Shown here: positions 13,120 through 38,110 of the stretch, one piece after another | Position numbering within the stretch: the stretch's first letter is position 1 | How the letters are laid out: the number at the start of each line of letters is the position of its first letter | Source: a bacterium | GTDB taxonomy: Bacteria; Hydrothermota; DG-26; JAUXAN01 | DNA length: 64,000 nucleotides | Direction of reading: 5' to 3' | Assembly (NCBI GenBank): GCA_030619885.1 | Contig: JAUXAN010000005.1 | Location: 1-64,000 of the forward strand | Position numbers and translations under genes: made by a program | Notes under the pieces: model-generated | What the model saw: only the letters and a program-made list of their open reading frames with translations | Database searches by the model: none | Told to the model about the DNA's origin: nothing

Positions 13120-13406
13120 AGTGCCGGCGTGCAGTTCATCTTCGACTCCGACTGAAAGGGTGAAAAAGCAGCCAGGCTCCAGCCAGGCTTACCCATGACA
13201 GTAGAAAGAACTACTTACCGCTGCTGCCTCCCGGCCCTCACGGGGTTTGTAGACTTCGGCTCCACAGGACCCAACTTTCAACACCTGCACCACCTATTTA
13301 CTTGTCTTTCAATCAAAAGCCTCGGACGAACCTTCGACCTCGCTGTAGCGGATTGCGAGCCCATAAGGGAGGGCACCGCTGGCTCCCCATCTAGCACGAC
13401 CGGCAA
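13120..13406 (-). ncRNA. ffs: Signal recognition particle RNA, large (Alu-containing) type
   Basis: The minus strand reads close to the Bacillus-type 6S-like SRP RNA. A 5' Alu domain (GCCGGTCGTGCTAGATGGGG, GCGGTGCCC, CGCAATCCGCT, AGGTTCGTCCGAGG) is followed by GGTGGTGCAGG and TTGGGTCCTG. Next is the S-domain helix 8 core GGGCCGGGAGGCAGCAGCGG (around 13222-13241), then a 3' arm ending GCACGCCGGCAC that pairs with the 5' GCCGG. The helix 8 tetraloop is GGGA rather than the usual GGAA. Length ~285 nt is as expected for Alu-type bacterial SRP RNA. It starts a few bases after the purN stop on the same strand, so it may be cut from the purN transcript or have its own promoter in the purN end. Confidence 0.9.
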
Positions 13407-37379: not shown

Positions 37380-37435
37380 TAGGGTAAGAAAAAGGATGGA
37401 GGAGATCGGGTGATCGCCCCGCACATAAGTTGCCT

Positions 37436-37828
37436 ATGTATTACGTTTACTTACTCAAAAGCATGAAAAGTGGAAGACTGTATATAGGTTGCACGGCCAA
37501 CTTAGAGAAACGCCTTTATCAACATAATGAAGGAAAGTCTGCTGCTACAAAGTCAGAAGCTCCGTTTGAATTGATCTACTTTGAGGGTTACAAGTCCAAG
37601 AAAGATGCCATATTACGCGAAAGGAGATTAAAGCACCATGGTCAAGGTATTAGAAGATTGAGAGAGCGTCTTAAGGAGAGCATCAAGTTAGGCAACTTAT
37701 GTGCGGGGAGGAAAGTCCGGGCTCCACAGGGCAGGGTGCCTTCTAACGGAAGGATTTCGATGTGCAGTCGGAATGGAAAGTGCCACAGAAACGAGACGTC
37801 CCTATTCGGGGTCAAGGTGAAACAGTGA
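37436..37828 (+). CDS. GIY-YIG nuclease encoded in the P3 loop of RNase P RNA
   Basis: 130 residues from ATG 37436. Residues 1-84 are a complete small GIY-YIG domain of the COG2827/YhbQ type: YVYLLKS (GIY strand), GRLYIGCTANLEKRLYQHNE (YIG, Arg26, His30), PFELIYFEGYKSKKDAILRE (Glu62), RRLKHHGQGIRRLRERLKES. The catalytic Tyr, Arg and Glu are intact. The A of the ATG is the last base of the P3 5' strand. No stop codon occurs before the loop closes, so the frame runs ~45 more codons through conserved RNase P RNA sequence to TGA 37826-37828; that tail is surely not under protein selection. No Shine-Dalgarno is seen, and the start region would be base-paired in the folded RNA. Confidence 0.85.
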   Translation: MYYVYLLKSMKSGRLYIGCTANLEKRLYQHNEGKSAATKSEAPFELIYFEGYKSKKDAILRERRLKHHGQGIRRLRERLKESIKLGNLCAGRKVRAPQGRVPSNGRISMCSRNGKCHRNETSLFGVKVKQ

Positions 37829-37980
37829 GGTAAGAGCTCACTTTTATCTCTGGTAACAGGGATAGAGGTAAACCCCACCCGGAGCAAGACCAAATAGAGG
37901 ACATAGGTTGCCCGCCTCAATGGTCCTCAGGTAGGTCGCACGATCTCACTGGTGACAGTGGGACAAGATTAATGATCACC

Positions 37981-38008
37981 ATCCCGCACATAAATTTATG
38001 TGTGGGAT
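37981..38008. repeat. Extra hairpin near rnpB 3' end echoing the P3 stem
   Basis: A 28-nt hairpin (ATCCCGCACATAAA paired with TTTATGTGTGGGAT, one G-U) whose CCCGCACATAA is identical to 37418-37428 in the P3 5' strand. Typical type A RNAs have only a few single-stranded bases here. Confidence 0.7.
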
Positions 38009-38038
38009 ACAGAACCCGGCTTACAGGTCTTCTCCATC

Positions 38039-38110
38039 TATTCTTTATCCGCGGTACTCGGTGTCCGCATCCGTCCATGCGGATCCAGAGATGGTATTCA
38101 GTGTTTTTCC
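38039..38110. repeat. Hairpin repeat 3' of rnpB
   Basis: CCGCAT/ATGCGG hairpin at about 38062-38079 followed by ggatccagagatg, the same tail as in the repeat at 7687-7699. It could also help end rnpB transcription, though there is no T-tract. Confidence 0.4.

Follow-up and report, generated by a model that had tools for sequence, protein, structure and literature searches.

The class A RNase P RNA gene at positions 37394-38039 (+ strand) of the window, by which we mean the whole 64,000-nucleotide stretch of DNA analysed here, has a P3 helix whose long loop encodes a GIY-YIG nuclease domain. Genes of the same protein lineage occupy the same hairpin in a second phylum, sister genomes differ by the presence or absence of the insert, and more distant relatives are found in other RNA helices and in other genes. 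The P3 hairpin is probably a copy of a mobile hairpin cassette.

A sequence-only reading of this DNA had described a complete type A RNase P RNA with a perfect 20-bp P3 stem around a 252-nt loop, and that description held up. RF00010 matches the gene at 230.6 bits against a gathering score of 100, and this match, together with the pairing of P1 to P3, places the gene among the class A RNase P RNAs. The Rfam alignment puts the 5′ end at 37650, inside the insert; P1, P2 and P3 were set by direct pairing. P1 joins 37395-37407 to 38026-38038 (13/13 pairs, two of them G-U), P2 joins 37409-37415 to 37974-37980 (7/7 pairs), and P3 joins 37417-37436 to 37689-37708 (20/20 pairs, all Watson-Crick), with every strand lying on the + strand of the window. 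The two P3 strands are also the 5′ and 3′ arms of the hairpin cassette. Between them lies the 252-nt loop (37437-37688), and the remaining class A RNA with its conserved blocks, which carries the RF00010 match, occupies 37708-38039 (+). When the whole gene is folded, the minimum-energy structure retains all 13 P1 pairs and all 20 P3 pairs, and base-pair probabilities in P3 range from 0.73 to 1.0. Helices are named here from the Rfam structure line, to which we take the standard RNase P names (P3, P9, P12 and so on) to apply.

The Rfam scan gave no other RNase P match within the window. The sequence-only reading had left room for a second intact rnpB, and an RF00010 search of the genome from which the window comes (G000, 97% complete) found none. 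An assembly chimera is unlikely because seven genomes from two phyla share this P3 arrangement. Elsewhere the window also holds a bacterial large SRP RNA gene (13127-13399, - strand; RF01854, 127.8 bits).

The open reading frame begins with an ATG at 37436, the final base of the P3 5′ arm, as had been noted from the sequence, and extends for 130 codons to a stop at 37826-37828. Its first 84 codons (37436-37687, +) lie in the P3 loop and encode the GIY-YIG nuclease domain (PF01541, E 1.5e-17). The YVY, YIG, R26 and E62 positions are all kept, in agreement with the earlier reading. The protein belongs to the GIY-YIG superfamily by its PF01541 domain and by R26 and E62, which are invariant across the 35 rows of alignment A2; Y16 and G18 are likewise identical in 35/35 rows, and the invariance of the N-terminal MYYVYLL in the same alignment is partly due to the use of MYYVYLL as a search pattern. 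The rest of the frame (37688-37828, +) reads on in frame across the 3′ arm and enters the RNase P core. The claim that the frame continues into the RNA core is correct for the window copy but does not extend to the other P3 copies read (G031, G147, G150, G152, G153 and G178), in which the ORF stops near the 3′ arm. The run-on, restricted to the window copy among those compared, could mark the onset of decay.

Compared with its nearest relative, the window ORF has 17, 17 and 38 differences at codon positions 1, 2 and 3, and dN is 0.19; dS is saturated, hence no dN/dS value is given. From this comparison the codons look to be under constraint. A chance ORF was rejected because of the Pfam E value of 1.5e-17 and the codon-position bias. 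An AlphaFold2 model of the domain, made from an alignment of 35 sequences, has a mean pLDDT of 91.6. The nearest solved proteins by sequence (hmmsearch) are UPF0213 (1zg2, E 2.3e-13) and SLX1 (7cq2, E 1.8e-8), with I-TevI a weak match (E 1.1e-3). A Foldseek search with the predicted model also had SLX1 as its top match (E 8.6e-4), and I-TevI was again weak (E 0.47). A group I or group II intron with a homing endonuclease was considered and rejected, as no intron RNA family surrounds the ORF: none of the three Rfam matches in the window is a group I or group II intron, and Rfam matched no intron family in the 40 related loci scanned.

The same protein lineage is found in P3 of other genomes. 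P3 of G031 (JAGMCI010000008.1; WOR-3, the phylum to which the window's genome is assigned by inference, but another family) encodes a protein 67% identical to that of the window, and P3 of the Balneolales genome G147 (MAG.339, JAKSCW010000032.1), whose contig starts inside the P3 5′ arm, encodes one that is 61% identical. A search of 128 Balneolales genomes added the P3 carriers G150, G152, G153 and G178, with protein scores of 132.7-136.9 bits; the next-best Balneolales match scored 85. Among 395 genomes of the wider phylum there were four matches above 100 bits, all of them Balneolales carriers found previously. In a tree of 106 relatives whose forks are mostly weak, the proteins of the window, G031 and G147 group together with support 99/94, and this is the sole clade relied upon. 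That tree holds 106 of 111 loci, five with fewer than 70 residues having been dropped, over 86 columns, and the proteins of G150, G152, G153 and G178 stand outside it. The P3 stems of these genomes differ in sequence and remain paired, and G000, G031 and the five Balneolales carriers have one rnpB match each. Because related genes occupy the same hairpin in another phylum, the insert is likely a mobile element. Counting all helices, rnpB-resident ORFs occur in 6 of 147 WOR-3 genomes (121 with an rnpB match) and 5 of 128 Balneolales genomes, or 12 rnpB insertions in 11 of 275 genomes, lower-scoring GIY places having been checked against the rnpB positions by reading the tables alone. ORF and rnpB share a strand in 12/12 insertions.

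Most of the relatives examined have a short P3, which answers the concern that all of them might share the long form. The distance from P1 to the core has a median of 39 nt in the WOR-3 loci (P1 placed in 43 of 46) and is 313 in the window. P1 was also placed in 14 of 19 further WOR-3 loci and in 52 of 54 Balneolales loci, a non-random set made up of the 30 best RF00010 matches, 20 low or odd picks and 4 carriers. Long distances in L029, L271, L287 and L288 most likely reflect a misplaced P1 and were excluded as insertions.

The sequence-only reading had called for a comparison with related rnpB genes that have an empty P3, and the Balneolales provide it. The rnpB genes of G153 and G154 are identical at 424 of 436 core positions and at 57 of 59 positions immediately upstream, yet P3 differs: G153 has a segment of 305 nt that holds the cassette, and G154 has one of 21 nt with a plain 20-nt hairpin. 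The pair provides an empty and an occupied allele that share one background, as a homing gene would have. G150 and G151 show a like contrast, with cores identical at 427 of 436 positions and upstream flanks that diverge (35/59). The cassette substitutes for the P3 hairpin and does not split it at one point; either state may be the earlier one. The sister alleles, the P3 lineage in two phyla, its patchiness, and the single rnpB match in each genome carrying it give good support to the proposal that a homing-type insertion has lengthened a peripheral helix. The sequence-only reading had added that the loop may be cut out by an RNase III-like enzyme and that translation may compete with RNA folding.

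P3 also holds inserts of another kind, in G182 and G204. In G170 (L280) and G177 (L279) the P3 loop is ORF-less, about 127 nt long, and inverted between the two genomes: the cores are identical at 298 of 300 positions, and the loops match in 107 of 128 columns as reverse complements and in 59 of 137 in the same orientation. Judged from these alignments, an inversion between the P3 arms has occurred. With the inserts in G182, G204 and G170/G177, P3 emerges as a landing site of a more general kind.

The insertion in RNase P is real, but the earlier description understated its reach, since the wider cassette family also occupies P9, P12, 16S and 23S, as well as positions next to tRNAs and within certain protein genes. 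Within the WOR-3 family f10, the ORF lies in P9 in G111 and in P12 in G103, is truncated in P12 of G105, and has been decayed by a stop in P9 of G107 (contig C150), where the conserved blocks of rnpB are kept. A second rnpB of G107, on contig C16, has the ORF in P3, and there the P3 3′ arm is followed directly by the post-P12 segment, with a core block missing. The two rnpB copies (L186 and L200) of this genome, which is 86% complete with 7% contamination, therefore comprise one with decayed and ORF-less cassettes in P9 and P12 and another with an ORF-bearing P3. In rRNA, L068 lies inside 23S by Rfam scan, and L069 overlaps a 16S match, with 16S-like sequence on both flanks by eye. The P9, P12, 23S and 16S entries (G111, G103, L068, L069) are other, more distant branches of the protein.

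To describe the family we used a sample of 111 loci (3 from the window's genome, 80 named contigs and 28 WOR-3 loci; L144 was left out as a duplicate of L064), which is biased toward the loci that match the window and G031 proteins best, found in part via the pattern MYYVYLL. A flanking inverted repeat with a score of at least 12, near both ends of the ORF, is present in 33 of the 109 loci with enough flank and in 0 of 458 other similar-sized ORFs of the same loci. The stem bases are similar within groups, such as CCC(C/A)GCAC, CCCCACAC and CCCAGCCC, and more distant groups have CCCCGTTAGA and CCCCGTGAGA. A tRNA or tmRNA gene lies within 150 nt on the same strand at 52 of 111 loci, compared with 540 of 15633 random placements (3.5%); on the opposite strand the counts are 0 of 111 and 105 of 15481. 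Frequently, a partial tRNA copy with a palindrome is followed by the ORF and then by a complete tRNA. A hairpin, a neighboring tRNA/tmRNA, or residence in rnpB or rRNA accounts together for 83/111 loci.

Several individual loci have unusual layouts. L316 (G388:C1:1384200-1386000) consists of three tandem units with a period of 323 nt, ending in tRNA-Ser; each unit has the 5′ part of tRNA-Ser, holding palindromes, and a GIY-YIG ORF. In the window's own genome, L052 (4450-4972; G000:C57) has a GIY-YIG ORF amid broken tRNA-Pro copies and TCCGTACGGA-type palindromes, with an intact tRNA-Pro downstream. L323 and L328 are GIY-YIG hairpin cassettes with CCCCGTGTAATA-type arms beside or inside what looks by eye like a four-helix-bundle (23S-IVP-like) ORF, and in L221, L223, L225 and L314 GIY-YIG hairpin cassettes with CCCCGTTAGA or CCCGTGAGA arms split, again by eye, the 3′ part of a tyrosine-recombinase gene.

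Forms without the ORF also occur. The rnpB genes of f10 have ORF-less inserts with like stem ends in P9, P12 and the P16/P17 arm, and very short palindromes in the same helices (G105, G107, G116, G119, G120). In G059 the P3 arms resemble those of G031 and enclose no ORF, and P3 of G020 and G159 holds a palindrome alone. In the rnpB of the window, the P19 region contains the short palindrome CCCGCACATAAATTTATGTGTGGG (37983-38006, +), which shares a motif with the P3 arm; CCGCACATAA has 9 + 10 copies in the window's genome, against 0 + 0 for the reversed control. The palindrome GCACATA..TATGTGC has 47 copies in G031 (reversed control 0) and 6 in G000 (reversed control 1). Other WOR-3 counts are 5 in G059, 5 in G020 and 3 in G056, and the Balneolales counts are 6 in G175, 5 in G178, 3 in G189 and 3 in G152, where one of the three sits in the genome's own rnpB P12. 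At least three copies are found in 4 of 7 P3-lineage carriers and in 5 of 264 other genomes, among which P9/P12 carriers are counted (Fisher p 1.9e-5, with relatedness ignored). The palindrome is absent from the P3 carriers G147, G150 and G153, and was rejected as a strict mark of P3 carriage for that reason. A different repeat family in RNase P RNA is seen in L281-L284 (Balneolales), which have long ORF-less P12 inserts with CCAGCGC..GCGTTGG-type ends.

The cassette is predicted to be mobile. In the mechanism we favor as probable, the nuclease would cut a recipient RNA gene at a place able to form a hairpin, and the cassette would be copied into that gene as the break is repaired. The arms would have two roles: as inverted repeats in DNA they would delimit the element and resemble its target, and as RNA they would rebuild an extended helix, so that the ribozyme core would be kept and the host would survive. 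If the ORF were lost, short palindromes would remain. Branched or cruciform DNA is the substrate of SLX1 and ANKLE1 (PMC8287910, PMC10287932), and with SLX1 as its nearest fold the nuclease may read hairpin or branched DNA and not a long sequence. Such reading would explain the presence of one family in RNase P, rRNA and tRNA genes. More tentatively, and with some doubt on our part, the hairpin-homing cassette could be a new class of mobile element, in which an SLX1-like nuclease of about 84 residues targets the hairpin itself, swaps the tip of an RNA helix (RNase P P3, P9 and P12; rRNA; tRNA), does no harm because its arms refold as a longer RNA helix, and leaves REP-like palindromes once the gene is gone.

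Some of the data sit less easily with this mechanism. The P3 lineage is faithful to one site, which fits plain sequence-specific homing too: a defined sequence in an empty P3 would be cut, gene conversion would copy the cassette, and hairpins would simply be tolerated sites. A single protein clade that keeps to P3 across two phyla and sister alleles that are empty and occupied are what such homing would produce. Against it, the sequences of empty P3 hairpins vary widely, and the family occupies many unrelated host genes linked by flanking hairpins and not by a common target sequence, and we regard it as unlikely. Inserts without a GIY-YIG ORF in P3 or P12 (G182, G204, G170/G177 and several Balneolales P12) also count against the cassette mechanism, since tolerant sites may therefore collect anything, as do the five genomes that lack a P3 ORF and have at least three palindromes, the three carriers with none, and the 28 of 111 loci with no score-12 hairpin, nearby tRNA/tmRNA, or rnpB/rRNA residence.

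The P3 inserts in G182, G204, G170 and G177, which lack this ORF, and the long P12 inserts in several Balneolales could mean that P3, P9 and P12 merely tolerate insertion, that assorted repeats pile up there, and that the ORF is a passenger with no role in movement. Yet the ORF is enclosed by hairpins outside RNA genes as well (33/109 overall, 0/458 in controls), its codon pattern is constrained, and the P3 copies form a separate lineage, which together make a passive hot spot improbable. Retained catalytic residues and an ORF on the rnpB strand in every insertion would also suit a domesticated gene whose protein serves the host, for example as a trimming or regulatory factor for the RNase P RNA that encodes it. 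We give this idea very little credence, as the gene is patchy (6/147 WOR-3 and 5/128 Balneolales genomes), has one decayed and one truncated copy, and is missing from sister species. A mobile hairpin cassette remains the explanation we prefer.

There are several known systems with which the cassette can be compared. Intervening sequences of 23S rRNA have a four-helix-bundle ORF in a loop that caps an extended RNA helix, and this loop is removed from the RNA with no ligation; they share with the window an ORF in such a position, and differ in having an unrelated protein and another RNA. In REP/RAYT systems, short palindromes across the genome are tied to a small nuclease-like protein, and the RAYTs are tyrosine transposases with a fold unlike GIY-YIG. 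A likeness may lie in the short palindromes, which reach three or more copies in 4 of 7 P3 carriers and are absent from three, but the window protein is a GIY-YIG nuclease, not a RAYT, and its gene lies inside the hairpin. Intron-borne homing endonucleases like I-TevI share the superfamily of the catalytic domain, residence in conserved genes, and occupied and empty alleles, and differ by their intron: the window site has no intron family match and I-TevI is a weak match. Nucleases of the SLX1/UPF0213/ANKLE1 type are the nearest solved relatives by sequence and fold. They are repair or uncharacterised host proteins, whereas the window gene is embedded in an RNA helix.

The closest precedent comes from CPR bacteria, in which GIY-YIG ORFs lie in rRNA insertions that resemble neither group I nor group II introns (Tsurumaki et al. 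2024, PMC11270868). Most of those insertions are at the top or base of a stem-loop, and the authors regard the GIY-YIG as outside spread by homing, according to the accessible part of that paper, which mentions neither RNase P nor tRNA. The two cases share a GIY-YIG ORF in a non-intron insertion within a structural RNA gene and differ in the host, which in the window is RNase P RNA and not rRNA. Our L068 and L069 look like members of the CPR type as described there. To that part of the paper the present analysis adds the arms of the cassette, the forms that lack an ORF, the palindromes, the sites at tRNAs, and the empty and occupied alleles. In the open literature other than preprints, none of the matches listed reported a protein gene inside a bacterial RNase P RNA, or a GIY-YIG protein in association with palindromes, hairpins or tRNA genes.

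A protein gene inside RNase P RNA is of interest because this ribozyme is essential. The cassettes are a natural experiment on how far the peripheral helices of a ribozyme can be rewritten. They would unite rRNA insertions, tRNA-adjacent GIY-YIG genes and palindromic repeats in one testable system, and the close empty and occupied alleles permit a test of whether the nuclease homes by the shape of DNA and not by its sequence.
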